A stretch of 37,388 nt of DNA from an uncultured delta proteobacterium (GTDB taxonomy: Bacteria; Myxococcota_A; UBA9160; JAFDET01): positions 1 through 37,388 of the forward strand of contig CAMYOO010000007.1 in assembly GCA_947260035.1 (NCBI GenBank). Reading direction: 5' to 3'. Every line of letters starts with the position of its first letter. Positions within the stretch are counted from its first letter, which is position 1. Shown in pieces: positions 8,596-37,349 of the stretch. The position numbers and the translations under genes are program-made. The notes under the pieces are model-generated. The model searched no databases and was not told the DNA's origin. It saw only the letters and a program-made list of their open reading frames with translations.

Positions 8596-8632
8596 GGTGC
8601 GGGAAGCTACCACGCGTCCCCGGGGGCGGCCG

Positions 8633-21556: not shown

Positions 21557-21562
21557 CCGTCC

Positions 21563-22261: not shown

Positions 22262-22965
22262 CAGGCGCATCCTCCTCGGACATGGTCGACACACAGGCCG
22301 TACTTGGAGAGCGCGGTCTTGCGCGCGTAGCGCCCGATCAGCCGCGACAGCCAGGGCGCGGGCTGCGCGTGGTCGCCCTTCACTTCGACGACGAAGAAGG
22401 GAAGCCGGCCCGGCGGGCGCCGCTGCGCCAGTGTCGACGCCGCCCAGCGCACCGAGACGTCCCGATCCAATGCGATGCGCGCGCTGCCGTCGGGAGCGAT
22501 GCGTCGCAGCCGGCGGTAGCTGAGCCACAGCACCGGCCGCAGAGAAACGCTCAGGTGCTCGCGCACCAGCGCGGCCAGCGCCACCTCATCCGGGCGTTCG
22601 AGCGGAGCGAAGGCGATGCGCTTGCGCCGCTTGCCACCGAGCGCACCGACCCGGAACTTGGACTCGAGCCAGGCGTGGCCGTCCCCCGGCTCGTACCAAC
22701 GCAGGCGAAGCTTCTCCTTGACGTACTGCCCGTCGGCCTTGTCCCGATAGGCCACCAATCGCGGCGTGTCGTAGTAGACCGAGTGCACCACGTTCTCCGC
22801 AAAGTCGGGGTCCGGAGGGCAGTGAGCGACCAGCAGCGCCTCCATGGCACCCACGCGCGAGGCCGGCCCGACGTACTTGAGCTCGTGGCGTGCGGCAGAC
22901 GTCTGCCAGCCCGGCGCCAGGACGCCGGCCTGCGAGGCCGCTTCGCTTCCGGACGCGGAGATCAC
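22261..22965 (-). CDS. VTC-domain polyphosphate-polymerase-like protein
   Basis: A compact 234-aa VTC domain of the CYTH/triphosphate-tunnel type. The tunnel-lining basic and acidic residues are visible: RHELKY (26-31), YYDTP (64-68), KLRLRW (R87, R89), LESKFR (E101, K103), the basic patch KRRKR, YRRLRR (150-155), ALDRDVSV, VVEVKGD (E194, K196) and LSKYG (K221). In yeast Vtc4 such residues bind triphosphate and polymerise ATP γ-phosphate into polyphosphate. Bacterial VTC proteins are only partly characterised. It starts at GTG 22965, overlapping the lipoprotein TGA by 4 bp, and its stop overlaps the DUF4956 start. No membrane segment of its own, so DUF4956 may provide one. Confidence 0.9.
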   Translation of the reverse strand: MISASGSEAASQAGVLAPGWQTSAARHELKYVGPASRVGAMEALLVAHCPPDPDFAENVVHSVYYDTPRLVAYRDKADGQYVKEKLRLRWYEPGDGHAWLESKFRVGALGGKRRKRIAFAPLERPDEVALAALVREHLSVSLRPVLWLSYRRLRRIAPDGSARIALDRDVSVRWAASTLAQRRPPGRLPFFVVEVKGDHAQPAPWLSRLIGRYARKTALSKYGLCVDHVRGGCA

Positions 22966-23903
22966 GGCCCGGGACAGGATTTGGGCCAACCGCCCAGGAA
23001 GGATGCCTTTCCCCAGCCGGAGGCCTCGCCGAAATTCAGCACGTAGATCGGGTTCGGGTGGTTGCCCTCCACGACGAAGAACTCGGAGCGCCCGTAGGCC
23101 AAGCCCTTGGCCATGTTCAAGCCGATGCTGGTCAGATCGTGACGGGCTTTCTCCTGCCGTGTCTTCCAATCCAACTGGACGAGCATGCGGTCCTGGGTGA
23201 GCACCCAGAGACTGCCGCCCTGCCGAGCCATGCCGACGATGCCGCCGTACTCGGAGACCCAAAGCGCCTCGGGCTCCTCGCCTTCGGCCCCGACGAAGCG
23301 GTTCTCAGCGTAATCGTAGACGTAGACCGCCGCTCCCAGGGCTACCAGGAGATCGCTGCCCACGATCTCGATGGGCCCGTACTTGTGACCCTCTTCCAGC
23401 GCCTTCCACTCCACGAACTTGAGGTTCTCGCCCTTCGCCGGGCTCTGGAGCATGAAGATCGCCGGCTTGTCCACCGCCGGCGTCTCCTTCAGCTTGTTCA
23501 CGGTGTTGACCACGTACAGCGTCCGCTTCGCGCGGTCGTAGGCCAGCGATTCGAACTCAGCGGTGTAGGAGCAGTCCACGTCCGCGGATCCGTTGTCGCA
23601 GGCCTTGGCGTCCGGAAACGCCGCCGTGAAGTCGCGCTGGCGCAGACGCGCGCGGTAGGCGCCCGTCTCGCTGTCCACGATGTAGATCTGGTTCGAGTTG
23701 TCGTCGCCCACCCAGAGCTGGTCGCTGCCCTTCTCGAAGGTCAGGTCCTCGAGGTCGGCCGCCACGACCCGCGAGCCCTCGAAGGGCTTGCTGCGGATGG
23801 TGCGGGCCACGCACAGGCCCTCCACCGGCGTCGAGCGATGCACGCAGGCCGACGCGAAGACGACGACCCAGGCGAAGGCCAGCATGAGGCGGACGGCGCG
23901 CAT
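22962..23903 (-). CDS. lipoprotein, β-propeller (phytase-like/SdiA-regulated-like)
   Basis: A 313-aa exported lipoprotein: MRAVRLMLAFAWVVVFASAC has a hydrophobic core ending in a lipobox-like ASAC, with C20 as the lipidation site. The mature part has repeated strand patterns such as DLEDLTFEKGSDQLWVGDD, FESLAYDRAKRTLYVVNT and GIVGMARQGGSLWVLTQD. This matches a β-propeller of the phytase-like or SdiA-regulated kind. Phytase-like activity would suit the phosphate theme of the operon, but no catalytic set can be confirmed. The start ATG 23903 has GGGAGGGG about 9 nt upstream. As the first gene of the minus-strand operon it overlaps the VTC gene by 4 bp. Confidence 0.8.
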   Translation of the reverse strand: MRAVRLMLAFAWVVVFASACVHRSTPVEGLCVARTIRSKPFEGSRVVAADLEDLTFEKGSDQLWVGDDNSNQIYIVDSETGAYRARLRQRDFTAAFPDAKACDNGSADVDCSYTAEFESLAYDRAKRTLYVVNTVNKLKETPAVDKPAIFMLQSPAKGENLKFVEWKALEEGHKYGPIEIVGSDLLVALGAAVYVYDYAENRFVGAEGEEPEALWVSEYGGIVGMARQGGSLWVLTQDRMLVQLDWKTRQEKARHDLTSIGLNMAKGLAYGRSEFFVVEGNHPNPIYVLNFGEASGWGKASFLGGWPKSCPGP

Positions 23904-23936
23904 CCCTGAGAATCCCCTCCCGGGTGGCATACCCGC

Positions 23937-24026: not shown

Positions 24027-24863
24027 GTGCCCCGTCGCATCGAACGCGTCCTCCAGCGACTGCTCCCCGGGGCGGCTGCCCGCCTTCCCCTGCCGGACTT
24101 CCTGGGCATCGGCGCCCAGAAGGCGGGCACCACCTGGCTGGCGGCCAATCTGCGTCGACACCCGGACGTGTTCATGCCGGAGCGCAAGGAGCTGCACTTC
24201 TTCGACAACAAGTGGGACCGCCCGCTGCGCGAGTACGCGCGGCACTTCGAGGGGGGCGCAGGCCGGATCAAGGGCGAGATCACTCCCGCCTACGGGATCC
24301 TGCCCCCGGAGCGAATCCGCTACCTGCGCCGGGTGATGCCGCGCGTGCGGTTGCTGCTGCTGCTGCGCAACCCGATCGAACGCGCCTGGTCCCATGCGCT
24401 GATGGACCTGGCCTCCCGGCGCGGACGCGACCCCGAGCAGATCCCGTTCGACGAAGCGATCGCGTTCCTGGAGTCCGACCTGGCCGTGCGACGCAGCGAC
24501 TACGGAGCCATGCTCGACGCCTGGCTGGCGGTGTTCCCGCGCGAGCAGCTCTACGTGGGCTTCTTCGAGTGGATTCGCGAGCGACCCCGCGAGCTGTTGT
24601 CCGAGGTCTTCCGCCACATCGGCGTCTCCCCGGAGGTAGACTGGGCGGACTTCCCACTGGAGAAGGTGATCGTGCCCGGCGTCGCTCCCGGACGAAAGGG
24701 ACACACCACCGAGTGCCTGGAGCGTGCCGAGGGCTCCGACGAGAGCGGCCGGCACTCCTGCCCCGAGCCGGTGCGCCGCTGGCTGGAGCAGCGCTATGCA
24801 GACGACCTGGAGCGGCTGGCCCAACGGCTGGGCGGCCCGGCCGAACGCTGGCGCGTCTCATGA
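24027..24863 (+). CDS. PAPS-dependent sulfotransferase (first of three)
   Basis: A 278-aa cytosolic sulfotransferase of the heparan-sulfate/NDST-like group, which transfers sulfate from PAPS to a sugar hydroxyl or amine. The 5'-phosphosulfate-binding loop is LGIGAQKAGTTWL, with catalytic-type K32. MPERKELHFFDNKW and IKGEITPAYG follow as in NDST/HS3ST relatives, and the 3'-phosphate-binding segment is LLLRNPIERAWSHAL (R114, S122). The start is GTG 24027 with GGAGGT just upstream. It is the first gene of the plus-strand operon and overlaps the sulfatase by 4 bp (ATGA). The acceptor is unknown; context favours a glycan. Confidence 0.92.
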   Translation: MPRRIERVLQRLLPGAAARLPLPDFLGIGAQKAGTTWLAANLRRHPDVFMPERKELHFFDNKWDRPLREYARHFEGGAGRIKGEITPAYGILPPERIRYLRRVMPRVRLLLLLRNPIERAWSHALMDLASRRGRDPEQIPFDEAIAFLESDLAVRRSDYGAMLDAWLAVFPREQLYVGFFEWIRERPRELLSEVFRHIGVSPEVDWADFPLEKVIVPGVAPGRKGHTTECLERAEGSDESGRHSCPEPVRRWLEQRYADDLERLAQRLGGPAERWRVS

Positions 24864-26341
24864 GCGGCGCGGATCGAGGCCGGCGTTCTCTGCTCGAACG
24901 GCTGCGGTCCTGGGCCGACCGGCCGCCGACCGGACCGCGGCCTCCCAACGTGCTGCTGATCCTGTCCGACGAGCACAACGCGGGGGTCGCCGGCTTCGCC
25001 GGAAACCGCGTGGCCCGGACGCCGAACCTGGACGATCTGGCGGCGCGCGGCGTGGTCTTCGACGCGGCCTACTGCAACTCGCCTCTCTGCGGGCCCTCGC
25101 GCATGTCCCTCACGGCGGTGCGCCATCCGTCGCGGGTGAGCGCCTGGGGCAACGCCTCGTGGCTCCCCAGCGACGACGTGCCGTCGATCGCCCGGGCCAT
25201 GAACGCCGCCGGCTACGAGTCCCTGCTGTGCGGCAAGCAGCACTACGACGCCACGCGCCGCTACGGCTTCCGCGAGCTCGGCTCGTGGCGCACGAACCAG
25301 TATCGCAAGACGGGAATCGTGCGCCGACGAGACCCCGACGACTGGACGCCCCCGGAGCAGATCTCCAAGCGCTTCTCCAACTTCCGGCCGGGCGATGACT
25401 CGCCGGTGATGCGCCACGACCGCGCCGTCACCGAGACCGCGGGTTCCTTCCTGCGGCGTCGCAGCCGCAAGGACGCTCCCTTCTTCCTGCTGGTGGGCTA
25501 CCTGGCGCCCCACTTTCCGCTGATCGTGCCCGAAGCGTACTGGAACCGGTATCGCGGCCGGGTGCCGCTGCCGGAGATACCGCCCGGCCACCTGGAGAGC
25601 CAGCCGCGAAACTACCGGCACCTGCGCCTGGGCTTTGCCATGCAGGATGTCCCCGAGGAAACCGTGCTGAAGGGGCGCGAGCTCTACTACGGGCTCAGCG
25701 AGTGGATGGACGACCAGGTCGGCCGGCTGCTGGGTGCGCTCCAGCGCAGCCGGGTCGCCGACGACACCGTCGTCATCTACGCCAGCGACCACGGGGAGAG
25801 CCTTGGCGAGCACGGCTTGTGGTGGAAGAACTGCGCCTACGAAGGCGCCAGCCGGGTTCCCCTGGTGGTGAGCTGGCCCGAGCGCTGGAAGGGCGGCCAG
25901 CGCCGCAACGGAGCGTGCTCCCTCGTGGACCTGATGCAGAGCATCGCCGAGCTGGGCGGCGCCGAGCCCGACGCCGCCTGGGACGGCGACTCCCTGTGCA
26001 GCTGGCTCGACGCGGCCGAGACCCCGTGGAAGGACCGTGCGCTCTCCGAGTACTACGGTCACAACGTGACCTCGGCCTTCAGCATGCTGCGCAGTGGATC
26101 CTGGAAGTACGTCTACCACACGCCGCCGGACGCTCGGCACCCGGCGGAGCGGGAGCTCTACGACCTGGCGGCCGACCCGGGCGAGTTCGACAATCGGGCC
26201 GAGGACCCGGAGCAGGCCCAGCGCGTCGAGGCGCTGCACCGGGAGCTGGTGGACACGGTGGGCGAGGATCCCGACGCCGTGGACGCGCGCTGCCGGGCGG
26301 AAGTGACGACGGGCTACCAGCGGAGCGACGAACCGTCATGA
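24860..26341 (+). CDS. formylglycine-type sulfatase
   Basis: A 493-aa alkaline-phosphatase-fold sulfatase. NVLLILSDEHN carries the metal-binding Asp. SPLCGPSRMS is the CxPSR signature, whose C77 would be converted to formylglycine by FGE or an anaerobic SME. Later ASDHGESLGEHGLWWK gives the metal-binding DHG. No N-terminal signal peptide is visible (MSGADRGRRSLLERLRSW), suggesting cytoplasmic action, unlike most polysaccharide sulfatases. It starts at ATG 24860, overlapping the sulfotransferase stop by 4 bp, and overlaps the next gene by 4 bp. The ORF track's 805-aa form runs through the sulfotransferase in another frame and is spurious. Substrate unknown; opposition to the adjacent sulfotransferase is inference. 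Confidence 0.92.
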   Translation: MSGADRGRRSLLERLRSWADRPPTGPRPPNVLLILSDEHNAGVAGFAGNRVARTPNLDDLAARGVVFDAAYCNSPLCGPSRMSLTAVRHPSRVSAWGNASWLPSDDVPSIARAMNAAGYESLLCGKQHYDATRRYGFRELGSWRTNQYRKTGIVRRRDPDDWTPPEQISKRFSNFRPGDDSPVMRHDRAVTETAGSFLRRRSRKDAPFFLLVGYLAPHFPLIVPEAYWNRYRGRVPLPEIPPGHLESQPRNYRHLRLGFAMQDVPEETVLKGRELYYGLSEWMDDQVGRLLGALQRSRVADDTVVIYASDHGESLGEHGLWWKNCAYEGASRVPLVVSWPERWKGGQRRNGACSLVDLMQSIAELGGAEPDAAWDGDSLCSWLDAAETPWKDRALSEYYGHNVTSAFSMLRSGSWKYVYHTPPDARHPAERELYDLAADPGEFDNRAEDPEQAQRVEALHRELVDTVGEDPDAVDARCRAEVTTGYQRSDEPS

Positions 26342-27273
26342 AGACCGTCCTTTTCGAGCGGCGCTTCAAGAAGTTCCAGGGCGGCCACCTCAAGGCCTAC
26401 CACTACTTCACCCACGTGCTCGCTTCGCCGAACTGGACCGCGAAGGTCCGCTTCAGCGAGGACTCGGTCTGGGACGAAAGCAATCCCTGGATGGCTCATC
26501 CGGACAATGTCCTGGCGCCCGACGAGTCCTGCGCCCACGACGTGCACTTCCTGGGCGGCCGCGACTGGGAACGGATCCCGGAGAGCCAGCGCGAGAACCC
26601 GCCCGTGCCCCGGATCAACCTGATCCAGCACACCCGGCACGGTTTCCCCGACGACCCGCGCCGGCCCTTCCTGCGCTACCGGGCGGTGCGGATCTGCTGC
26701 AGCGAGGAGGTGGCGGATTCGATCCGGGCCGCCGGCGCCAACGGACCCGTCTTCACCAACCCCTACGGCCTGGATCCGGGCGAGCTTCCCGAGCCGATCC
26801 CCTTCGACGCCAAGCCGCTCGACCTGCTGATCGTGGCCATCAAGGGGCCGCGCTTGGGCCGGCGGCTGCGCTGGCGGCTGTGGCGCCCCCGCCGCCGCAT
26901 CGGGCTCCTGACGCAGCCCATCCTGCGCAGCGACTTCCTCAACCTGGTCAACCGCGCGCGGGTCACGCTCTTCCTGCCCCACGTGGACGAGGGGTTCTAC
27001 ATCCCGGCTCTGGAGGGAATGGGGCTGGACACGATCGTGGTGTGCCCGGACTGCGTGGGCAACCGCTCGTTCTGCATCCCCGAACAGACCTGCCTGCGGC
27101 CGCCCTTCGAGTTCCGCGCCATCCGCAGCGCCGCCGAGGATGCGTTGCGCCTGTCGGCGGCGCAGGCCGAGCCCATGCTGAAGGCCGCCCGCGAGATGTT
27201 CGGGAGCCACACACTGGTGCGCGAACGCGAACGCTTCCTGTCGATCCTGGACGACCTGGACGGAATCTGGTGA
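26338..27273 (+). CDS. GT-B-type glycosyltransferase (GT4-like)
   Basis: A 311-aa protein resembling the C-terminal half of GT-B glycosyltransferases. FNPYGLDP-like text is present as FTNPYGLDPGELP after VRICCSEEVADSI. The donor-binding signature is LPHVDEGFYIPALEGMGLDTIV, the E-G-F-x-x-P-x-L-E pattern, with D217/E218. MKTVLFERRFKKFQGGHLKAYHYF at the start fits an acceptor-side Rossmann strand with a Gly-rich loop. The domain is short for the family (usually 350-400 aa). It starts at ATG 26338 in an ATGA overlap with the sulfatase stop, and its TGA overlaps the next GTG. The acceptor is probably the same glycan as the flanking genes. Confidence 0.75.
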   Translation: MKTVLFERRFKKFQGGHLKAYHYFTHVLASPNWTAKVRFSEDSVWDESNPWMAHPDNVLAPDESCAHDVHFLGGRDWERIPESQRENPPVPRINLIQHTRHGFPDDPRRPFLRYRAVRICCSEEVADSIRAAGANGPVFTNPYGLDPGELPEPIPFDAKPLDLLIVAIKGPRLGRRLRWRLWRPRRRIGLLTQPILRSDFLNLVNRARVTLFLPHVDEGFYIPALEGMGLDTIVVCPDCVGNRSFCIPEQTCLRPPFEFRAIRSAAEDALRLSAAQAEPMLKAAREMFGSHTLVRERERFLSILDDLDGIW

Positions 27274-28973
27274 GCCGCGCGGCGGCAGGGCTCGCGCTGG
27301 TCATCGCAGCGCTGGCTCCCGTGCTGCTCTTCGACCGCTTCGGGTACGACTTCCTCTTCCACCAGGACCGGGCGCTGATGAAGCGACTGGCCTGGGCCGC
27401 GCTGGCGATCCCCCTGCTCAGCCTGCCGCCGGCGCTCCTGTTGGGCTGGCATCGCGGCGCCGCGGACATCGCCGAACGCGTGGCGCGCCTCGGACTCCGC
27501 GCGCCGGCGCGGCGGAGGGCGCTGGCGCTGCTGGCCGTATTCGCGACAGGGGTGCTGGTCTCCTCGGGGGTCCTGCTCCACTTCCCCAACTCGGCGGATG
27601 AGTTCGCCTACCTCTTCCAGGCGGAGACCTACGCGAGCGGACGCCTCTGGATCGACGAGCATCCGGTCCAGGCGTTCGTTCAGTTCATGCACTCGAAGGT
27701 GCTGGACGGCCGCTGGGTGAGCCGCTTCCCACCGGGCTGGCCGGCCTTCCTCGCCCCGTTCCTGGCCCTGGGGCTGCCCGCCTGGCTGGTGAATCCCATG
27801 GTGGCGGCGGCCTGCGTGGCCCTGCTCTACGTCCTGGGGCGGCGCTGCTTCGGCGAACGCGCGGGTCTCCTGGCGGCCGCGCTCTTCGCCCTGTCGCCCT
27901 TCCTGATCCTGAACGCCGGCGCCGAATACAGCCACCTGTTCGCCGCACTGCTCTCGCTGATCTTCGCGCTGGCGGGCACGCGCTACCTGGAGCGACCCTC
28001 GGCGGGCGCGGCCCTGGTGGCGGGCCTGGCCCTGGGCTGGCTGGGCCTGGCGCGCACCATGAACCCGGTGCTCCTGGGCGCACCGTTCGCCGTCGCGCTG
28101 CTGGCGCGGCGCTCGTGGCCTCACCTGCTGCGCGGCTGGCCGCTGGCGCTGGGAGGCGGCGCATTCCTCGCGCTGCTGTTGGCCTACAACGGCGTGCTCA
28201 CCGGGGATCCCACCCTGCCGCCCACGCTGGTGGACGATCCCAAGCAGACCATCGGCTTCGTGGGCGGCCACACGCCGGCGCGGGCCTGGAAGTTCATCCA
28301 GCACCGTCTGCTGCTGCTGCCGCGCTACACGTCCGGGCTCTTCCTCTTCGTCTACGGGCTCGCGCTGGCGCGCGGCGCCCAGCGCCGTGACCTGCGCTGG
28401 TGGGACGCGTACTTCTTGCTCGAGGTGCTGGGCTACTCCCTCTACCACAACAGCTCCCACGACACCTACGGGCCGCGCTACCTGTTCGAAGCCTTCCCGT
28501 TCGCGGCGCTGCGCATCGCGGCGGCGTGCGCGCCGCGCGCCGAGGGCCGGCCCTGGGCGCCGGTCTTCAGCTGGCTCGTGGCCCTGCACCTGGCCACGGC
28601 CGTGACCGGCATCGTCTCCACGGCGTGGCTCCACGGGCGCGTGATTCGCGAGCGACGCGATCCGGTCCGGGCCGTGGAGGAGGCGGGGCTCCGGAACGCG
28701 GTGGTCTTCGTGGCCTCGGACACCAGCCCGACGAGCCGCATGCCCAAGTTCGACCTGGTCCGGAACCCGCCCGACGTGGACGACCAGCCGGTGGTCTGGG
28801 CGCACTTCCGCAAGCAGGAGCTGGAACGAATCGAGGCCTACTACCCGGAGCGGACGTTCTGGGTCTACCAGCGCCCGCCCGACCAGGTGAGGGGACGCCT
28901 GGTCCCCCTGGACGCGTGGCGAGCCTCTCGAGCCGCCGGAGAGGCCGCCGCAGGCGCCGATCCGGGCGTTTGA
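27270..28973 (+). CDS. polytopic GT-C-like glycosyltransferase (GT39/GT83-like)
   Basis: A 567-aa membrane protein with about 10-12 hydrophobic segments. After the third, the periplasmic loop reads FPNSADEFAYLFQAETYASGRLW. D110/E111 match the acidic pair typical of GT-C enzymes such as ArnT and PMT. RFPPGWPAFLAPFLALGLP and SHDTYGPRYLFEAFPF are also typical. The C-terminal ~130 aa are soluble. It should transfer a sugar from a polyprenyl-phosphate donor outside the inner membrane, but neither sugar nor acceptor is known. It starts at GTG 27270 (GTGA overlap). A 33-bp gap with two GGGGAC copies separates it from the next gene, the only spacing over 30 bp in this operon. Confidence 0.8.
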   Translation: MSRAAAGLALVIAALAPVLLFDRFGYDFLFHQDRALMKRLAWAALAIPLLSLPPALLLGWHRGAADIAERVARLGLRAPARRRALALLAVFATGVLVSSGVLLHFPNSADEFAYLFQAETYASGRLWIDEHPVQAFVQFMHSKVLDGRWVSRFPPGWPAFLAPFLALGLPAWLVNPMVAAACVALLYVLGRRCFGERAGLLAAALFALSPFLILNAGAEYSHLFAALLSLIFALAGTRYLERPSAGAALVAGLALGWLGLARTMNPVLLGAPFAVALLARRSWPHLLRGWPLALGGGAFLALLLAYNGVLTGDPTLPPTLVDDPKQTIGFVGGHTPARAWKFIQHRLLLLPRYTSGLFLFVYGLALARGAQRRDLRWWDAYFLLEVLGYSLYHNSSHDTYGPRYLFEAFPFAALRIAAACAPRAEGRPWAPVFSWLVALHLATAVTGIVSTAWLHGRVIRERRDPVRAVEEAGLRNAVVFVASDTSPTSRMPKFDLVRNPPDVDDQPVVWAHFRKQELERIEAYYPERTFWVYQRPPDQVRGRLVPLDAWRASRAAGEAAAGADPGV

Positions 28974-29006
28974 CAGCCTCGGGGACGTAGGGGACATTCG
29001 GCCGCC

Positions 29007-29840
29007 ATGCACCGCGAGAAGACGACGGTCCTGCCGAGCTTCCGCGTCGCGACGGCCCCGCTGCGCATGCTCCCGGCCTTCTCGATCATCTCCGTCGAGC
29101 GCGCCGGCACCACGTCGTTGTATCGCTACCTGTGCCAGCACCCGCGGATCGGCGAGGCCTTCCGCAAGGAAGTGCACTACTTCGACATGAACCACGGGCG
29201 CGGTGTCGGCTGGTACCGCGCTCACTTCCCCAGCCGCGCCTGGTCGCGCTGGTCGGCGCTACGCCAGGGAGGTGCCGGGATCACCGGCGAGGCCAGCCCC
29301 TACTACCTCTACCACCCCCACGTTCCGGTTCGCATGGCCGAGCTGCTCCCGGACGTGAAGCTGGTGGCGCTGGTTCGCAACCCCGTGGAACGCGCCTACT
29401 CGCACTACCACCTGAACGTGCGCCAGGAGAAGGAGACGCTGTCCTTCGAGGATGCCCTGGATCGCGAGGAAGAGCGTCTTGCCGGCGAGTGGGAGAAGCT
29501 GGTGGCCGATCCGGACTATTGGAGCCACGCCCACTACACGTTCGCCTACCGGGCCCGCGGCCTCTACGCCCAGCGCCTGGAGGAGTGGCACAAGCACTTC
29601 GCACCGGAGCGGATCCTGGTGGTGCGCAGCGAGGACCTCTACGCCGATCCCGCCTCGGTGGTGACCCGGGTCTTCCAGCACCTGGAGCTTCCGGACTTTC
29701 GGCCCGAGGGCTTCAAAGCCTACAACCAGAAGCCCTACCCCGGGCTGTCGGCGGAGACGCGACGCGGCCTGGCGCAGTTCTTCGAGCCTCACAACCAGCG
29801 TCTGTACGAGCTTCTGGGTCGCGACCTCGGCTGGACGTGA
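29007..29840 (+). CDS. PAPS-dependent sulfotransferase (second of three)
   Basis: A 277-aa sulfotransferase of the NDST/HS-sulfotransferase-like family. The phosphosulfate loop is FSIISVERAGTTSLYRYL, with Arg (R32) where heparan enzymes have Lys; this occurs in many bacterial members. KEVHYFDMNHGRG and ITGEASPYYLYHP follow. The 3'-phosphate site is LVALVRNPVERAYSHYHL. The C-terminus (YADPASVVTRVFQHLELPDF) is standard. ATG 29007. Its TGA overlaps the next GTG by 4 bp. It is clearly diverged from the sulfotransferase at 24027, so this is not a recent duplication, and a different position or acceptor is likely. Confidence 0.92.
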   Translation: MHREKTTVLPSFRVATAPLRMLPAFSIISVERAGTTSLYRYLCQHPRIGEAFRKEVHYFDMNHGRGVGWYRAHFPSRAWSRWSALRQGGAGITGEASPYYLYHPHVPVRMAELLPDVKLVALVRNPVERAYSHYHLNVRQEKETLSFEDALDREEERLAGEWEKLVADPDYWSHAHYTFAYRARGLYAQRLEEWHKHFAPERILVVRSEDLYADPASVVTRVFQHLELPDFRPEGFKAYNQKPYPGLSAETRRGLAQFFEPHNQRLYELLGRDLGWT

Positions 29841-31270
29841 GCGAACCGGCACCGCCGACACGAACCCAGGGGCCCCTGCGCCGCGCCGCGCCCGCCCTCT
29901 TCGCCCTTCTGGTCTTCCTCAGCACGGGCCTGGCCGGCGAGCGTTGGATCAGCCTGGCGCCGGAAACCGGCGGCAGCCTGCACAACCTGAGCCTGTCCTG
30001 GAACCTGTGGCGCTGGGGCATCGCCTCCACACGCCGCGCCACGCCTCCGGAGCTGCAGCCGGAAAACCGGCGCGAGCCGCTCTACTCGATGCTGCTGGCG
30101 GGCGTGCTGGCGGTGAGCGCCGACCGCGAGACCACCAGCCGCGCCTGCGTCTTCCGGCGCGAACCCGCCTGCGAGAAGCTGGCGCTGCGTTTGAAGCGCA
30201 CCAACGTCTGGATCCTGGCGGCCACCTGCGCCGCCACGTTCCTGGCCGCGCGCAGCGTTCTGGGTCCGGGCCCGGCCGCCTATCTCGCGTGCCTGATCTT
30301 CGCGATGACGGGTCCCCTGTGGCGGGTCCTCGACCGCGCCAAGAGCGAGACCCTGGCGACGCTGCTTGTGTTGCTCGCATGCTGGGGTCTCTACGCCGCC
30401 GTGAGCCGCGCTCGCTGGCGCGTCCCAGCCGTCGCGGGAGGCGTCGCCCTGGGGCTCCTGATGCTGACCAAGGCGGTCTTCTTCTTCGCCGGCCCGGTGC
30501 TGCTGGCGGCCGCGCTCTTGCCCGTGAAGGAACGCCGGCCCTGGAAGCCGATCGGGGCCGCCCTGGCCGTCGCCTACCTGGTGACGGCGCCGTGGGTCGC
30601 GCGCAACCTGCATCACGACCTGGGCTTTGGAATCTCCCGCGACCGCGAGGTGCTGGCGATCCGCGCGGAGCACACCACCATGAGCTGGCGCGAGTGGTCC
30701 GCGTCGTGGCTCTACTTCGCCGGCGAGGGTTCCGGACTGGCGCGCGGGCTCCTCGAGCGGAGCTTCGCACCCGAAGACTGGGCGCGACTCATGGAGAGCA
30801 ACCCGGACGGCTACTACCTGCGCGCCAAGAAGAACCGGGGCGCGGTGGCGGCCCGGGTGCGGGACGGCCCTGTCACCGAGGACGCCACCTACGAGGCTGC
30901 CAAGGCGGTGATCCTGGAGCACTGGCCCATGCAGATCGCCGTCACCGGCCCGTTCGCCGTGCGCGGCATCTTCGTGGGGCAGAACCTGTACCGTTGGCCG
31001 CGGGCAAAGCGGGTGGCTCGCACCCTGGCCAACCTGATGATTCCGGCGCTGGCGATCTGGATCGGCCTGCTCGCCCTGCGCGCCGACACGGCGCGCCTGT
31101 GGTTCGTCGTGCTGCCGGTATTCAGCTACGCCTTCCACGCGGGCATCACCCAGAACATCGACCGCTTCACGTGGCCGATCCTCCCCGAGGCCGCGGTCGC
31201 CTTCGCCGCGCTCTGCACGTTGGCGGCTGCCGGCGTGGCCACAAGAACCCGGAGCCGTCCGGCAGCCTGA
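29837..31270 (+). CDS. polytopic GT-C-like membrane protein
   Basis: A 477-aa integral membrane protein with about 10 hydrophobic segments. An early extracytoplasmic loop contains a PENRREPLYSMLLAGVLAVS stretch, resembling the 'R-x-P-x-Y-P' loop of GT39/GT83-like enzymes. ILAATCAATFLAARSVLG, GLLMLTKAVFFFAGPVLLAAALL and TQNIDRFTWPILPEAAVAFAALC are further membrane segments. No clear DxD/DE pair stands out in the first loop, so the GT-C assignment is weaker than for 27270-28973. It starts at GTG 29837 (GTGA overlap with the sulfotransferase). The coupling suggests it and the sulfotransferase act on the same substrate. Confidence 0.7.
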   Translation: MSEPAPPTRTQGPLRRAAPALFALLVFLSTGLAGERWISLAPETGGSLHNLSLSWNLWRWGIASTRRATPPELQPENRREPLYSMLLAGVLAVSADRETTSRACVFRREPACEKLALRLKRTNVWILAATCAATFLAARSVLGPGPAAYLACLIFAMTGPLWRVLDRAKSETLATLLVLLACWGLYAAVSRARWRVPAVAGGVALGLLMLTKAVFFFAGPVLLAAALLPVKERRPWKPIGAALAVAYLVTAPWVARNLHHDLGFGISRDREVLAIRAEHTTMSWREWSASWLYFAGEGSGLARGLLERSFAPEDWARLMESNPDGYYLRAKKNRGAVAARVRDGPVTEDATYEAAKAVILEHWPMQIAVTGPFAVRGIFVGQNLYRWPRAKRVARTLANLMIPALAIWIGLLALRADTARLWFVVLPVFSYAFHAGITQNIDRFTWPILPEAAVAFAALCTLAAAGVATRTRSRPAA

Positions 31271-31298
31271 CCCCGGGGTGGCCTATCATGCTTGCACC

Positions 31299-32135
31299 GT
31301 GACTGCCCAGCAGAGCCAGCCGCGCGCCCGTCCCATCGTGGTCATCGGGATGCACCGGTCGGGGACGTCCCTGGTCGCCCGCATCCTGGCCGCGGCGGGA
31401 GTCCAGATGGGGGCGGACCGCAACCTCCACGACGAGTCCGACTTCTTCCGCGAGCTCAACAAAGAGATCTTCCGCGCAGCTCACGCAGACTGGGACTGGC
31501 CGCTGGCCACCATCCCGGCCCTGGAGGACAAGACCCTCTGCGACAACCTGGCCGCGCACCTGACCGAGCGCTGCGCCTCGAAGAACGCCCGGGCCTACCT
31601 GGGGCGACGGTTCGGCAAGGCGGACCTGGCCGCCCAGACGGACCGCTGGGGTTGGAAGGACCCCCGCAACACCTGCACGCTGCCGCTCTGGCTGCGGGTC
31701 TTTCCCGAAGCCCGGGTGGTCAACGTGTACCGCGACGGCGTGGACGTGGCCGCCAGCCTGGTCACGCGGGAGCGCAAGCGCGCGGGGCGATTGGAGAACG
31801 CGATCCGTTCCTCGCGCTGCCTGGACCCGGACCGGGCGTTCGGCTTGTGGACGGAGTACGTGGAGCGGAGCCTCGACGTAACCGCCGAGCTCCCGCCCGC
31901 CCGGGTTCGCGACATTCGCTACGAGCGGCTGATGGCGAAGCCCTATGAGGCGGTGCGCGAGCTGCTGGCGTTCCTCGAGCTGGGCCGGGACGAAGCCGAG
32001 GTGGCTGCGCTGATGCGCATGGTCGACCCGGAACGCGGCCAGGCCGCGCGCAAGGATCCCGAGTGGGAGACGCTGCGACGCGCCAAGACCTTCCACCCGC
32101 TCATGCGGCGCCTCGACTACGGCGACGGCCCGTGA
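31299..32135 (+). CDS. sulfotransferase family protein (third of three)
   Basis: A 278-aa sulfotransferase of the Sulfotransfer_3-like group, distinct from the two NDST-like ones upstream. The phosphosulfate loop is VVIGMHRSGTSLVARIL. The HDESDFFRELN segment, WGWKDPRNTCTLPLW and NVYRDGVDVAASLV are family hallmarks, and the last is the 3'-phosphate site. Two GTG starts are possible, at 31278 and 31299. I prefer 31299, because the longer form adds an unlikely AYHACTV and neither has a good Shine-Dalgarno. A TATCAT at 31284-31289 could be a -10 box for a nearly leaderless internal transcript. Its TGA overlaps the following fusion gene by 4 bp. Confidence 0.88.
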   Translation: MTAQQSQPRARPIVVIGMHRSGTSLVARILAAAGVQMGADRNLHDESDFFRELNKEIFRAAHADWDWPLATIPALEDKTLCDNLAAHLTERCASKNARAYLGRRFGKADLAAQTDRWGWKDPRNTCTLPLWLRVFPEARVVNVYRDGVDVAASLVTRERKRAGRLENAIRSSRCLDPDRAFGLWTEYVERSLDVTAELPPARVRDIRYERLMAKPYEAVRELLAFLELGRDEAEVAALMRMVDPERGQAARKDPEWETLRRAKTFHPLMRRLDYGDGP

Positions 32136-34312
32136 CCCCGCGCGTCGACGTGATCCTGCCCCTCCACGGCGGCGAGCGCTGGGTGGAGGAGGCGGTGCAG
32201 AGCGTGCTGGCGCAGAGCTTCGACGACTGGCAGCTCTGGGCGGTGGACGATGCCTCGCCCGACGCCAGCGCCGACCGCGTGGAGGCGCTCGCCGAGCTGC
32301 GTCCCGACCGCATCGAGGTCCTGCGCCTGGAGCGGCCGCTGCGGGCGGCCGGCGCGCGCATGCACGCGATCGGCCGGGGCCGCGGCGAGCTGCTCGCCTT
32401 CCTGGACCAGGACGACCGCTGGCGCCCGGAGAAGCTGGAGCGACAGGTGGCGCGCTTCGACGCCGACGCGGAGCTGGGCGCCGTGCACGGTGACGCCGCC
32501 ATCATCGACGAAGGCGGTGCCGTGGTGCCCGGCGCCGCAGACCGCGAGAACGCCCTACGCGCGCGGCTCGCCTGGGGGACCGGGGCGGCGCTGTCGGCCA
32601 CGCTCTTCGAGAAGAACGCGATCCGGCTGGGCTCGGCGATGCTGCGGCGCAGCGCCTTCGAGGCCGCGGGAGGCTTCGACACCTCGCTCTTCGGCGGCGA
32701 GGACTGGGAGTTCTGGGTGCGCTTCGCCGAGCGCTTCTCGATCGCCCACCTGCCCCGGGTGCTGCTGGAGCGTCGCGTACACGGTGAGAACGTCTCGCGG
32801 GTGCATGCCGCGGCGCGCGCGGAAGGCAAGCTGCGCGCCGTGGAGAAGGCGGTGCGCGCGCAACCCCAGCTGGGACCGCTGGCCGCCCGGCGGCGGCGCG
32901 CAATCCGCAGCGCCGCCGGGATTCCCGAACCGCCTCAGGCCACGGCGACCCGTCTTTTCGCAAGCCTGGACCAGGCCGGCGTCCGCTACTGCCATTGGAA
33001 GAGCAACGAACACGTGGCCGCGGCGCTGGCCGGCCGCACCGACTTCGATCTGCTGGTGGACCCCACGGACCGCGAGCCCTTCGAGGCCGTGCTGGCGACG
33101 CTGGACTTCAAGGAAGTGGAGGCGCCGCCGGAGAAGCGCTTTCCCGGCATGCGTGACCGGCTGGGCTTCGACCCCGAGAGCGGCGGACTGCTGCACCTGC
33201 ATGTTCACGAGCAGCTGATCCTCGGCGCCGCCGGCGTCAAGAACCACCGGATTCCCATCGAAGCGCTGCTCCTGGACGATGGACGCCGGATCGACGGCGT
33301 GCGGGCGCCGGCCCCGGAGCTGGAGCTTCTGCTCCTGGCGATCCGCGCGCCGCTCAAGGTCTCGCTGAAGCGCATCCTGCAGCGCTGGCGCAAGGACGGA
33401 ACCAAGACGCTCCAGAGCGCCCTGGTCCGGGAGATGGCCTTCCTGCTCCCCGATGTGGATGAGGCCCACTTCGGCGAAGCCGTGGCCAAGACGGGCCTGG
33501 CCCTGGACGCCGACACGATCCTGACCTTCGTGCGGAGCGCACGCGACGCGACGCTGACGACACCGGAGCTCCACCGCTTCCGGCGGGCCGTGCTGCAGGC
33601 GCTGCGCCCCTACCGGCGGGACTCCGCGGCGGGCGCCGCGGCGCGCGCCGTGAGAGCGCGGGCGCTTTCCTCCCGTGCGGGTCTCGTCCTGTTCGGCCCG
33701 CGCGGGCGGCGACTGCCGGGCGAGGGGCGGCTGATCGCCCTGGTGGGCGCCGACGGCTCGGGCAAGTCCACCCTGGCAGCGGAGCTGCGCACCTGGCTGG
33801 GCTGGAAGCTCGACGTGCGCGACGCCTACTTCGGGATTCCCAAGAGCTCGCGCGGCTACCGGCTGCTTCAGCGCATGCGCGGCGGGCGCCGCGGCGGCTG
33901 GATGGACGCAGAGCGCTGGCTCTTCGCCGCGCGCCACCGGCTGAGCCAGTACCGGCGGGCGCGGCGCCACACCCGCCGCGGCGGCATCGTGATCGCCGAC
34001 CGCTACCCGCTTCCCGAGCTCTGGGCGCCCCCCGAGCCCATGGATGGGCCGCGCCTGTCCGGCCAGGGCATGGCCGGGCGCGAACGCAACCTCTACGCGC
34101 GCATCGGCCCGCCGGACCGAGCCTTCGTCCTGCGCACCGACCTGGAGCTGCTGCGGCGCCGCGAGCCCCGGGTGGAGCCCGGCATTCACGCGCGCAAGGC
34201 CCAGGTGGTGAACGCCCTCGGCGACTCGGAGGTGCGCAGCGTGGTGGACGGAAACCGGCCCTACGAGGAAGTGCTGCTCGACCTCAAGCGCCGGATCTGG
34301 GCGCTGCTCTGA
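32132..34312 (+). CDS. GT2 glycosyltransferase - nucleotidyltransferase-like - P-loop kinase fusion
   Basis: A 726-aa three-part protein. Residues 1-230 are a GT2 domain, with VDVILPLHGGERW, WAVDDASPD (D39, D40), LAFLDQDDRW (92-95) and GGEDWEFWVRFAE. Residues about 275-480 look like a nucleotidyltransferase-fold domain, opening with RYCHWKSNEHV and TDFDLLVD (D304, D306, D310). Residues about 530-726 are a thymidylate-kinase-like P-loop domain: LIALVGADGSGKSTLA (K545), then IVIADRYPLPELW and a LID-like ERNLYARIGPPDRAFVLRTD. YCHWKSN proteins with kinase domains occur in polysaccharide loci, but their reaction is unknown. It starts at GTG 32132 (GTGA overlap). Plausibly it glycosylates and phosphorylates the same glycan; that is inference. 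Its last 29 bp overlap the convergent kinase gene. Confidence 0.85.
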   Translation: MTPRVDVILPLHGGERWVEEAVQSVLAQSFDDWQLWAVDDASPDASADRVEALAELRPDRIEVLRLERPLRAAGARMHAIGRGRGELLAFLDQDDRWRPEKLERQVARFDADAELGAVHGDAAIIDEGGAVVPGAADRENALRARLAWGTGAALSATLFEKNAIRLGSAMLRRSAFEAAGGFDTSLFGGEDWEFWVRFAERFSIAHLPRVLLERRVHGENVSRVHAAARAEGKLRAVEKAVRAQPQLGPLAARRRRAIRSAAGIPEPPQATATRLFASLDQAGVRYCHWKSNEHVAAALAGRTDFDLLVDPTDREPFEAVLATLDFKEVEAPPEKRFPGMRDRLGFDPESGGLLHLHVHEQLILGAAGVKNHRIPIEALLLDDGRRIDGVRAPAPELELLLLAIRAPLKVSLKRILQRWRKDGTKTLQSALVREMAFLLPDVDEAHFGEAVAKTGLALDADTILTFVRSARDATLTTPELHRFRRAVLQALRPYRRDSAAGAAARAVRARALSSRAGLVLFGPRGRRLPGEGRLIALVGADGSGKSTLAAELRTWLGWKLDVRDAYFGIPKSSRGYRLLQRMRGGRRGGWMDAERWLFAARHRLSQYRRARRHTRRGGIVIADRYPLPELWAPPEPMDGPRLSGQGMAGRERNLYARIGPPDRAFVLRTDLELLRRREPRVEPGIHARKAQVVNALGDSEVRSVVDGNRPYEEVLLDLKRRIWALL

Positions 34313-35099
34313 CCGCTCCGGCGAGATCCCGGGCCAGCTCTTCGCAGACCGGAGCCGCGCGCAGGGCATCGGCCGACGCGTAGCGGTTGGCGACCACAAA
34401 GACCGGAATCCTCCGCCGGCGCGCCTCGTCGGCGATCGCCTGGGCCACCCGCTCGCCACGCTGGACGAAGACCCGGACCTGCGCGGGATCGCGCCCGGCC
34501 AGGCGCTCGGGCAGGCCTCGCGCGGCCAGGCGCGCGCAGCATTCGTCCAGCTCGGCCTGTACGTGGACCAGCACGTCGGGGAATACCCAGACGCGCAGGA
34601 AGCGCTGCAGAGCCGGCTCGTCCAGCGCCGACTCCGGATCGGCGAACAGGTTCAGCGCGCGATGCGCGATGCCCTCCTCCCACAGGAAGAGGTCCATGCG
34701 CCGCGCCTGGGAGCGCAACATCAGCCAGGTCAGGATGCTGCGCTCGACCCAGCGCTCCAGGGTCTCGGCGGTCGCGGTGTCACGCTCGCGAATCGCCGCC
34801 AGCGCCTCGCGATAGCGACGCCAACCCGCGCGCTGGAAGGTGCGAAAGCGCCACAGGAGAAAGGGCGTCTCCACGTCCTTGAAGTACTCCAGGCGTTGGC
34901 CCGCGACCTCCCGCTCGCGCACCTGGGCGCCGGCCAGCTTGCCGACCCAGCCGTGGCGCATGTAGAGATCGCGGATCGCATCCCGGGGCGGCACGCGCAG
35001 CCGGCGCTCGCGCAGCAGCTCCGTGCAGCGCTCGGCCAGGGTGCTCTTCCCGCTTCCGGGCGCTCCCGTGAACTCGACGATACGCCCGCGCCGCGGCAT
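34284..35099 (-). CDS. P-loop kinase-like protein, uncharacterised
   Basis: A 271-aa protein opening with a Walker A motif, VEFTGAPGSGKSTLAERC (residues 8-25). The middle contains LFLWEEGIAHRALNLFAD, which could play the Walker B/substrate role of nucleoside- or sugar-kinase-like P-loop proteins. PDVLVHVQAELDECCARLAARGLPERLAGR resembles the LID region of adenylate/thymidylate-type kinases. The substrate is unknown. ATG 35099 is chosen because it places the P-loop directly at the N-terminus; the longer ORF to 35474 is antisense to the next gene. Its 3' end overlaps the fusion gene tail-to-tail by 29 bp. Having two unrelated-looking P-loop kinases side by side suggests a shared phosphorylation role, by inference. 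Confidence 0.78.
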   Translation of the reverse strand: MPRRGRIVEFTGAPGSGKSTLAERCTELLRERRLRVPPRDAIRDLYMRHGWVGKLAGAQVREREVAGQRLEYFKDVETPFLLWRFRTFQRAGWRRYREALAAIRERDTATAETLERWVERSILTWLMLRSQARRMDLFLWEEGIAHRALNLFADPESALDEPALQRFLRVWVFPDVLVHVQAELDECCARLAARGLPERLAGRDPAQVRVFVQRGERVAQAIADEARRRRIPVFVVANRYASADALRAAPVCEELARDLAGAVRAAPRSGA

Positions 35100-35178: not shown

Positions 35179-35880
35179 ATGCCTGTCCGAACCGCCGTAT
35201 TTCCGAGAGTGCGTCGCTTGCGCGCCGCCTTGGCCGTACTCCTGCTCGCGCCGTTCCTTGCGGTCGCCGCCCCGGTACGCGCCCAGCCCGACGCCGTGCC
35301 GCTGGAGGACGACCTCCAGATCGTGGTGCTGCCCCAACGCCTGCTGGCCATCGGCTCGCGCGGCGGCGGGCAGCGCGAGTTGGCGCTGGAGCTGGGCGAG
35401 CGGGTGTTGTGGCAGGGGGTGCGGGGCCGCGTGGGCATGGTGCTCACCGACCGGCGGGTCCTGGCCGTGACCACCGAGAGCGGCTCCTGGCAGACCGAAC
35501 GCTACCGGCGCACCGAGACGGTGCCGGAACCTCCGCTGCTGGGCGGCCGCGTGGGGATCCTGGTGCTGCGGACCCGCTTCCTCGGCTTCGACGGCGGCAG
35601 CGGCAACCTGGTAGAGAGCAGCATCGGCCCCTCGGAGAAGGTGATCGACTGGGGAGTGAGCCAGAACGTGGCCGTCGCCGTGACCAACCGCCGCGTGCTC
35701 GGCCTCTCACCGTTCCGGGGCGGCTTCTTCGAGAGATCGGTCACCCCCGCAGAGCGCTACCAGGGGCTCACCACCGTCGCCAACTCCGCCACCGTAACCA
35801 CGTCCCGGCGACTGCTGATCTTCCGGGCCCCGAGCGGGACCTGGGAGGAGCGAAACCTGGACCTGCGCGACCGGCGCTAG
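35179..35880 (+). CDS. secreted protein with about five propeller-like repeats
   Basis: A 233-aa exported protein. The signal peptide has a hydrophobic core LRAALAVLLLAPFLAVAA and probable cleavage after APVRA (residue 35). The mature chain repeats every ~40 aa: VVLPQRLLAIGS, MVLTDRRVLAVTT, LVLRTRFLGFDG, VAVTNRRVLGLSP, TVTTSRRLLIFRA. Each is a strand with T-x-R-R-[VL]-L, followed by E and W/F-containing text. That pattern fits a small β-propeller or similar solenoid with about five units. I do not recognise the family, and no catalytic motif is visible. ATG 35179. It is 14 bp upstream of the next membrane-protein gene and divergent from the P-loop kinase. A binding or sensing role is possible but unproven. 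Confidence 0.75.
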   Translation: MPVRTAVFPRVRRLRAALAVLLLAPFLAVAAPVRAQPDAVPLEDDLQIVVLPQRLLAIGSRGGGQRELALELGERVLWQGVRGRVGMVLTDRRVLAVTTESGSWQTERYRRTETVPEPPLLGGRVGILVLRTRFLGFDGGSGNLVESSIGPSEKVIDWGVSQNVAVAVTNRRVLGLSPFRGGFFERSVTPAERYQGLTTVANSATVTTSRRLLIFRAPSGTWEERNLDLRDRR

Positions 35881-35894
35881 GAGCCGGACCCGAG

Positions 35895-37349
35895 ATGGAG
35901 ACACGCCGCGCACGGATCGCCGCAGCGGCGCTCCTGGTCGCCAGCGCGATCCCGATCTGGAGCGTGCGCTTCTTCCCCAGCCAGGACGGCCCCTCCCACC
36001 TGTACAACGCCCGCCTGCTGACGGCGCTGCTCGATCCCGCGAACGCGCGCCTGCGCGAGTTCTTCGAGTTCAATCCCGGCCTGCACCCGAACCTGCTGGC
36101 CCACGGCCTGCTGGCGGGCCTTCAGGCCGTGGTGTCACCGCTGCCGGCGGAGAAGATCCTGCTCACGGCGCTGGTCGTGCTGCTGCCGCTCTCGCTGCTG
36201 TGTCTGCTCCGAGCGGTCGAGCGCGGGCGCGACGTGTATGCGCTGGCGGCGCTTCCGTTCGCCTACCACCACCTGCTGCACCTGGGCTTCTACTCGTTCT
36301 CGCTGGGGCTCTCGCTCTGCTTCTTCACCCTGGCGTTCTTCTGGCCGCGCCGAACGCGCGTCACGCTGGGCGGCGTGCTGGGCGTGAACGCCCTGCTGCT
36401 GCTGACCTACCTGGCGCACTTCGGGCCCTTCGCCATGAGCCTGCTGGGCATGGCCATCGGCCTGGCCGCCGTTCCGCTGGCCGCGGGGGAAGGCTCGCGC
36501 GGCGAGCGCTTGCGGCGCGCCGTCCTGGGCGGCCTGCCCATGGTACCCGCGGGCCTGCTGGGGCTGGCGTACCTGATGGCGGGAAGCGATGGCTTCACCA
36601 AGTACGTCAGCGCCGAGAAGCTGCGCACGATCTTCTTCGAGCGCATGCTGCTGACCTCCTACACCACCTGGCAGCAGATGCTGGCGCCGTGGCTGCTGGG
36701 CTGCCTGGCGGTGGCGCTGATCTTCACCGCGCTCGACCGGGCGCGACGCCCGGTCGGCTTTCTGCCCCGAGACGCCTTCCTGGTCTTTTCGGCACTGCTG
36801 GCAGCGTTCTTCTTCACACTGCCGCGTTGGATGAACGACGGCGGCTTCGTCAATGACCGCGTGTTCCTGCTCTTCTTCCTGCTGGCGTGGGTGGGGATGG
36901 CTCCCCCGCCCCGGCGGCTGGCTGTGGCACTGGGAGTCGTGCTGCTGGCCTGCGCGGGCGCCCACCTGGGCCGGCTCTCCTGGGAGTACGCGCGCCTGCA
37001 GCCGGAGCTGCGCGCCGTCACGGCCGCCGTCGAGCAGATCGAGCCCCACTCCACCGTGGCCTACCGGCGGCTCGCCCGGCAGTCCGAGGCCTTCGAGCGC
37101 TACCCGCGCTACGTGGACCCGTTCGCCCATGTGGATTCCTATTATGGGCTGGGCGAGGACGTGGTCCTCTTCGACAACTACGAGACCCGCTTCGACTACT
37201 TCCCACTGCGCGCGACGGCCGCGGAGCGCGTAGACCCCGACTACGTCGTCGTCTGGCCCCTGCCCCCCGACGAGCCCCTCCCCGACGACCTGCGCGACCA
37301 CACCATCCTGCACCACGCCGACGGCCTCGCCCTCCTCCGCCGAAACTAA
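35895..37349 (+). CDS. polytopic membrane protein, GT-C-like
   Basis: A 484-aa integral membrane protein with about 10 hydrophobic segments and a soluble C-terminal tail of ~110 aa (from ARLQPELRAVTAAVEQ). The first loop contains FFPSQDGPSHLYNARLL. Uncharacterised bacterial GT-C-like proteins often have an Asp (here QDG) at the equivalent place. AYHHLLHLGFYSFSLGLSLCFFTLAFFWP and LTYLAHFGPFAMSLLGMAIGL are membrane spans. ATG 35895, 14 bp after the repeat-protein gene, so the two are likely one transcript. The donor and acceptor are unknown, and it could be a non-enzymatic membrane protein. The ORF track's 646-aa form is extended through the upstream gene. Confidence 0.65.
   Translation: METRRARIAAAALLVASAIPIWSVRFFPSQDGPSHLYNARLLTALLDPANARLREFFEFNPGLHPNLLAHGLLAGLQAVVSPLPAEKILLTALVVLLPLSLLCLLRAVERGRDVYALAALPFAYHHLLHLGFYSFSLGLSLCFFTLAFFWPRRTRVTLGGVLGVNALLLLTYLAHFGPFAMSLLGMAIGLAAVPLAAGEGSRGERLRRAVLGGLPMVPAGLLGLAYLMAGSDGFTKYVSAEKLRTIFFERMLLTSYTTWQQMLAPWLLGCLAVALIFTALDRARRPVGFLPRDAFLVFSALLAAFFFTLPRWMNDGGFVNDRVFLLFFLLAWVGMAPPPRRLAVALGVVLLACAGAHLGRLSWEYARLQPELRAVTAAVEQIEPHSTVAYRRLARQSEAFERYPRYVDPFAHVDSYYGLGEDVVLFDNYETRFDYFPLRATAAERVDPDYVVVWPLPPDEPLPDDLRDHTILHHADGLALLRRN

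Follow-up and report, generated by a model that had tools for sequence, protein, structure and literature searches.

The stretch of DNA analysed here, referred to as the window, is 37,388 nucleotides long and is contig C7 of a 4.58-Mb draft genome (480 contigs, 92.9% complete, 5.7% contamination) of an uncultured delta proteobacterium from a Myxococcota lineage. Statements made about genomes are based on profile searches, and every genome compared is a metagenome assembly. Eight co-directional genes, g1 to g8, occupy positions 24027-34312 of the forward strand, with a further gene, kin2, converging on the last of them. These genes are as follows, where ST is used for sulfotransferase, GT for glycosyltransferase, and NTK for the nucleotidyltransferase-kinase portion of g8.

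24027..24863, + strand: g1 (ST1), predicted PAPS-dependent carbohydrate sulfotransferase of the heparan 3-OST/NDST type (PF00685, PF13469, 3uan, XssA)
24860..26341, + strand: g2, formylglycine-type sulfatase without signal peptide, predicted cytosolic (PF00884, SGSH_C)
26338..27273, + strand: g3, probable GT-B glycosyltransferase, family-specific (EX7E motif)
27270..28973, + strand: g4, membrane GT-C, PMT_2-like (PF13231)
29007..29840, + strand: g5 (ST2), predicted PAPS-dependent carbohydrate sulfotransferase of the heparan 3-OST type (PF00685, 1t8u)
29837..31270, + strand: g6, GT-C-like membrane protein (PF13231 below cut-off)
31278..32135, + strand: g7 (ST3), Sulfotransfer_3 enzyme, whose start may instead be GTG 31299 (PF13469, RSGTS)
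32132..34312, + strand: g8, fusion of GT2, polymerase-beta-type nucleotidyltransferase and thymidylate-kinase-fold kinase (PF00535, predicted structure)
34287..35099, - strand: kin2, second P-loop kinase, convergent with g8, probable NTK partner (sub-threshold AAA_18/AAA_33)

All eight reading frames of the run are real, with a coding signal that is typical of high-GC DNA. The first-pass annotation had described them as joined by six tight junctions, five of these being 4-bp ATGA/GTGA overlaps, along with one exception of 33 bp, and the frames and junction positions agree with this as regards the overlaps (at 24860, 26338, 27270, 29837 and 32132) and the exception (between g4 and g5). The sixth ‘tight’ junction, that is, the one between g6 and g7, depends on where g7 begins, being 7 bp in length given GTG 31278 as the start or instead 28 bp given GTG 31299, with the latter favoured by relatives, as orthologues from genomes G001 and G003 align only from residue 19. 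The g4-g5 gap is the sole wide internal gap which is independent of start choice. Approximately 14 sulfotransferase loci are present in this genome, and roughly 0.01 eight-gene windows containing three of them would be expected by chance, this being a rough estimate that assumes ~4,200 genes.

Three genomes of the genus retain the operon. G002, the nearest, has all eight genes in the same order at 91-96% identity, with g8 frameshifted. G001 too possesses all eight, at 48-73% identity, distributed over two contigs, i.e., ST1, sulfatase, GT-B, GT-C and ST2 on C95 and g6, g7 and g8 on C156; beyond ST2 on C95 there is a polytopic membrane protein, which I take to be YbhN/LPG-synthase-like. In a sister genus (G003) the operon occurs as two pieces: one contig carries sulfatase, GT-B and ST1, a second carries ST2, ST3 and g8, and Arylsulfotran_2 proteins are encoded on both pieces, beside ST1/sulfatase and beside ST2. 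The 33-bp gap described above falls between the two groups of genes that G003 has on different contigs. Every operon gene displays a dN/dS, versus G002, of 0.10-0.23, indicating purifying selection.

All three sulfotransferases score above Pfam cut-offs, for Sulfotransfer_1 and/or Sulfotransfer_3. ST1 matches PF00685 (Sulfotransfer_1, cut-off 22) at 34.8 bits and PF13469 at 40.2 bits, ST2 matches PF00685 at 69.2 bits, and ST3 matches PF13469 (Sulfotransfer_3) at 95.5 bits, the last possessing RSGTS as its PAPS loop (RxGTS). Among solved structures, the matches of ST1 and ST2 are 3rnl (a sulfotransferase, source unnamed) and heparan 3-OST/NDST chains. Particularly, ST1 aligns with 3-OST-1 (3uan, E 3.7e-14), with its catalytic Glu in KELHFF, its PAPS loop as KAGTT, and RNPIERAWS, while ST2 aligns with 3-OST-3A1 (1t8u, E 2.9e-25), with the Glu in KEVHYF, along with RAGTT and RNPVERAYS. 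It is, that is, the 5'-phosphosulfate loop, (K/R)xGTT, and the catalytic Glu of KExHFF which both enzymes align with those of the heparan sulfate 3-O-sulfotransferases. Given these conserved PAPS loops and catalytic residues, ST1 and ST2 are predicted to be heparan-type carbohydrate sulfotransferases. The relationship is nonetheless distant (E 1e-14 to 1e-25), and neither enzyme has a signal anchor, so both would be cytosolic, unlike the Golgi heparan 3-OSTs.

The three had been viewed at first pass as belonging to at least two subfamilies and as not being recent copies of one another, and both views hold. ST1 and ST2 are 30% identical over 211 aa, and BLAST matches neither of them to ST3. ST1 (25% identity, E 3.6e-17) and ST2 (E 1.9e-12) are of the XssA type, with ST3 instead of the XssE type (27% identity, a weak match at E 2e-5). 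ST2 displays 38-41% identity to sulfotransferases from Nonomuraea, Parasedimentitalea and Nostoc; a search for it among viral contigs found none. Identities of 25-40% do not fix the acceptor specificity that would be predicted for these three enzymes.

A lack of PAPS-synthesis genes from the genome had been named as grounds for giving up sulfation altogether. Those grounds fall away, as both ATP sulfurylase (Sat, one, on contig C10) and APS kinase (CysC, one, on C16) are found. With regard to export, none of the eight operon products is a flippase (Wzx), polymerase (Wzy), PCP, priming sugar transferase or exporter. Nor does the draft genome, which is 93% complete, have any match to OPX/Wza (PF02563) or Wzy_C/WaaL (PF04932), profiles which do find targets in control genomes; its single Wzx-like protein is located on another contig, C194. 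Because the genome is incomplete, export genes could lie on a missing contig. The words ‘surface’ and ‘polysaccharide’ in the first-pass annotation are not supported by what the operon and the draft genome contain. It is therefore unlikely that the product is a secreted sulfated exopolysaccharide or capsule made by the classical Wzx/Wzy route, as synechan is, even though two sulfotransferase subfamilies are present as they are in xss, NTK homologues reside elsewhere within Wzx/Wzy loci, and the protein on C194 could be pointed to as a flippase candidate. A surface polysaccharide is no more likely than a shorter sulfated glycan attached to lipid, LPS core or protein.

The glycosyltransferases can be described with varying precision. 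The earlier assignments stand for g4, which scores 29.8 bits against PF13231 (PMT_2, cut-off 26.1) and has ~8 hydrophobic segments, and for the N-terminus of g8, which is a GT2 domain (PF00535, 89.4 bits, above cut-off). As g6 scores 23.8 bits against PMT_2, i.e., under the same cut-off, and has ~5 hydrophobic segments, ‘GT-C-like’ is for it a fair label. The GT-B assignment of g3 survives in part: Pfam and NCBIfam searches with this protein were without any match, so a family assignment is not had, but an E-x7-E motif, which is typical of GT4-type GT-B enzymes, is present as EGFYIPALE and is kept in 4 genomes, making g3 a probable GT-B glycosyltransferase as judged from that motif. Of 377 sampled genomes of the phylum, 4 have a full-length homologue of g3, these being the window's genome, G001, G002 and G003. 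No hydrophobic segments are seen in the sulfotransferases, the sulfatase, g3 or g8, and no sugar-nucleotide synthesis genes are present in the operon. Upstream is a UbiA protein that resembles decaprenyl-phosphate phosphoribosyltransferases (98 bits versus a cut-off of 234), and which is possibly a source of polyprenyl-linked sugars.

From a different perspective, the sulfated product could be a lipid or small molecule, as with the Stf0 sulfolipid or the Nod factors of NodH/NoeE, with the glycosyltransferases making a short glycolipid. Polymer export genes indeed are absent, and ST3 shows weak matches to NoeE as well as to solved chains 2z6v and 2zq5. Such a product is nevertheless improbable, as the solved structures closest to ST1 and ST2 are those of heparan and related carbohydrate sulfotransferases, and as four glycosyltransferase genes, with UbiA and GT-C proteins around them, point to a chain longer than one or two sugars. 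Lipid or small-molecule sulfation does overlap with the glycolipid version of the sulfated glycan that is preferred here.

The sulfatase, g2, possesses what is expected of a type I formylglycine sulfatase, that is, a PF00884 (Sulfatase) match of 160.5 bits (with SGSH_C at 63.7 bits), the CxPxR motif, and FGE encoded in the same genome (two PF03781 proteins). Its active-site motifs are kept as CGPSR (residue 77), DHG, CGK, APHF and WWK. The nearest solved relatives are choline sulfatases (E 3e-50), including BetC (6fny), with which these motifs align, though the g2 alignment stops short of the BetC C-terminal part. A choline sulfatase proper it appears not to be, as TIGR03417 yields 267 bits versus a cut-off of 433, and choline genes are not seen within the window's operon.

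An N-terminal hydrophobic segment is absent from g2 and present in 7 of 7 other checked sulfatases of this genome. The first-pass annotation listed the sulfatase simply as one of the operon's parts, and the missing signal adds a clue to its role. Without such a signal, g2 is probably cytosolic and thus probably acts there on an intermediate of its own pathway, though g2 could instead be a general salvage enzyme. Extending the latter idea to the whole operon, imported sulfated sugars would be processed by sulfatase and transferases together. The genome's ~27 sulfatases along with its FGE, as typical of degraders of sulfated polysaccharides, might suggest this. The operon, however, has no glycoside hydrolase or importer, its glycosyltransferases and PAPS-dependent sulfotransferases are biosynthetic, and it is the other checked sulfatases, not g2, which carry the N-terminal hydrophobic signal. 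A catabolic or salvage role for the operon is thus very improbable. If a cytosolic sulfatase does function within a biosynthetic operon, then bacteria would have something comparable to sulfate editing.

The NTK portion of g8 (residues ~261 to 726) has counterparts in 80 loci where it forms a separate protein, some 430-510 aa long. These loci come from Cyanobacteria, Chloroflexota, Actinomycetota, Bacteroidota, Firmicutes, Proteobacteria, a haloarchaeon and others; a search for NTK on plasmids found none. Its AlphaFold2 model has a pLDDT of 93.8. As fold searching with the full model recovered the kinase half only, the NTase domain was searched alone (pLDDT 93.3 when folded alone). The C-terminal half displays a thymidylate-kinase fold (Z 17.4 to TMK, rmsd 3.2, 173 aligned), and the NTase domain is a polymerase-beta-type nucleotidyltransferase (Z 11.6 to MenT1, rmsd 3.7, 169 aligned; Z 10.3 to ANT(2'')-Ia). 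NTK thus shares the folds of its two domains with thymidylate kinase and with NTP_transf_5/ANT-type nucleotidyltransferases, but invariant residues, including the motifs CHxKSN and TDxD, define it as its own family. Despite the likeness in fold, it is not a thymidylate kinase proper (TIGR00041, 16 bits versus a cut-off of 83).

Two other functions were considered for these domains and rejected. The first is FKRP/LicD-type phosphotransfer by the NTase domain, for which a Z of 6.3 is too weak. The second is that nucleotidyltransferase and kinase are a local maker of PAPS. The nucleotidyltransferases of ATP sulfurylases are of the HxGH type, unlike the polymerase-beta type seen here, and kin2 gives only a 17-bit P-loop match to adenylyl-sulfate kinase.

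A homologue of kin2, whose own AAA_18/AAA_33 matches are sub-threshold, lies at most 400 bp from NTK in 39 of the 67 loci that have full flanks; over all loci the count is 45, and another 25 matches lie elsewhere within ~10 kb. Other neighbours of NTK include GT4 enzymes, Wzx, Wzy_C, Wzz and, in 8 of 112 cases, sulfotransferases. Outside of the window's family, sulfotransferase, NTK and kin2 stand in a row at seven loci, labelled Chloroflexi/Chloroflexota or Anaerolineae/Anaerolineales. The GT2-NTK fusion is full-length in G001 and G003, and fusion with GT2 is seen only in this Myxococcota family. Tentatively, then, NTK and kin2 may form a two-protein, glycan-modifying module, found across many phyla, which would add a phosphate-linked or nucleotide-activated group to polysaccharide precursors. 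In some lineages a sulfotransferase would join this module to form one working unit (ST-NTK-kin2). Fusion with GT2 would hold NTK at the glycan as it grows, and the sulfation pattern would be proof-read by the cytosolic sulfatase. A limited literature search found no description of a nucleotidyltransferase-thymidylate kinase fusion in a polysaccharide or sulfation context, and the pair thus apparently is a hitherto undescribed, testable enzyme module of polysaccharide loci.

As the operon is conserved and tight, with three sulfotransferases, a sulfatase and glycosyltransferases, this bacterium probably produces a sugar chain bearing sulfate. The claim that this is a sulfation operon which acts on a glycan is well supported as far as sequence goes, given two heparan-type sulfotransferases with catalytic residues, glycosyltransferases, PAPS genes and family-wide conservation. 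On balance, and with some though not great confidence, the operon may be viewed as both making and editing a sulfated glycan. The likeliest candidates for this product are a lipid-linked oligosaccharide and the glycan of a glycolipid or glycoprotein. Sugars would be added at the cytosolic face by the GT2 domain of g8 and by GT-B g3. Three soluble, cytosolic, PAPS-dependent sulfotransferases would then sulfate this glycan at different positions, ST1 and ST2 presumably by a heparan 3-OST-like mechanism (as suggested by catalytic Glu and PAPS loops) and ST3 as a Sulfotransfer_3 enzyme, with PAPS presumably supplied by Sat and CysC. Sulfate on the intermediate could be trimmed or proof-read by g2. 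As the sulfotransferases and sulfatase have no hydrophobic segment or signal, sulfation, and probably also desulfation, would be cytosolic, i.e., would take place on the precursor. After flipping, the GT-C proteins g4 and g6 may add sugars from polyprenyl-phosphate donors, while NTK of g8 together with kin2 might, as judged from conserved neighbourhood, provide a group that is phosphorylated or nucleotide-activated, or join it to this glycan.

Among known systems, the xss (synechan) cluster on plasmid pSYSM of Synechocystis PCC 6803 resembles the operon in combining several glycosyltransferases with sulfotransferases of two subfamilies, of which XssA is required for synechan (PMC8205485). In xss, two sulfotransferases are encoded along with Wzx, Wzy, PCP, a priming transferase and regulators, while the window's operon has instead three sulfotransferases, a cytosolic sulfatase, GT-C proteins and the GT2-NTK fusion, and no polymer export genes. 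Similarly, wps-1 of Actinoplanes missouriensis, likened to the operon here by description, is predicted to make a non-cyanobacterial sulfated exopolysaccharide and has two sulfotransferases, one of heparan type, but is a Wzx/Wzy cluster without a sulfatase; it has been probed by gene deletion, with its sulfated product proposed, in 2026, without chemical proof (PMC13390465). According to the synechan paper, sulfated polysaccharide had not been reported from other bacteria (PMC8205485), and among bacteria these polymers are regarded as almost restricted to cyanobacteria (PMC8205485, PMC13390465). No description of a comparable operon was found in the portions available of the literature on bacterial sulfated glycans. 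A three-sulfotransferase operon in Myxococcota would broaden that near-cyanobacterial range, and its enzymes would be new carbohydrate sulfotransferases for glycosaminoglycan-like synthesis. Some Myxococcota MAGs are indicated, in a further report, to carry sulfotransferases (PMC9723792). The nearest named records with a g8 homologue are Deltaproteobacteria bacterium Meg19_46_Bin_213 (JAFDET01), Myxococcota bacterium PL23a_bin.57 (JANQFA01) and FCS_M_Myxococcota_02 (CAMYLJ01).

The NTK (nucleotidyltransferase plus TMK-fold kinase; in the window fused to a GT2 as g8) and kin2, a P-loop kinase convergent with g8 in the window, form a pair which is kept across phyla in polysaccharide loci (the window and L072-L151), with sulfotransferases accompanying that pair in some of them. 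No description of the pair was found in the literature searched. These genes, and those flanking the operon, are as follows in the window:

32912-34309, +, NTK
34287-35099, -, kin2
19139-23906, -, consecutive CotH-like, DUF4956, VTC-domain and phytase-like lipoprotein genes, adjoining the operon
17408-19117, -, flanking GT-C-like membrane protein
35877-37346, +, flanking GT-C-like membrane protein

The CotH-like to phytase-like gene order is kept in the relative G001. Neither of these two additional GT-C-like proteins has a Pfam match.

Gene calls in this draft genome (G000) warrant caution: an apparent isoleucyl-tRNA synthetase (4988-8613, -; judged by eye) is broken into three ORFs in differing frames, probably by assembly frameshifts. 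In the nearest genome, G002, g8 (L049:6139-8221, -) is frameshifted in its GT2 part, near residues 146-171, which may be sequencing error or instead real.

In the sister genus, ST2 and ST1/sulfatase each are adjoined by PAPS-independent arylsulfotransferase-like (PF14269) proteins, one a tandem duplication:

L050:12316-14823, +, PF14269 protein(s) beside ST2
L067:10370-11668, +, PF14269 protein(s) beside ST1/sulfatase

G000 itself encodes ~27 sulfatases and ~14 sulfotransferase loci, seemingly high numbers. On its contigs C49 and C20, a Sulfotransfer_3 gene is adjoined by a member of the same unnamed family in both cases (pattern MSEE...W(D/E)EFCDxLKAAG).
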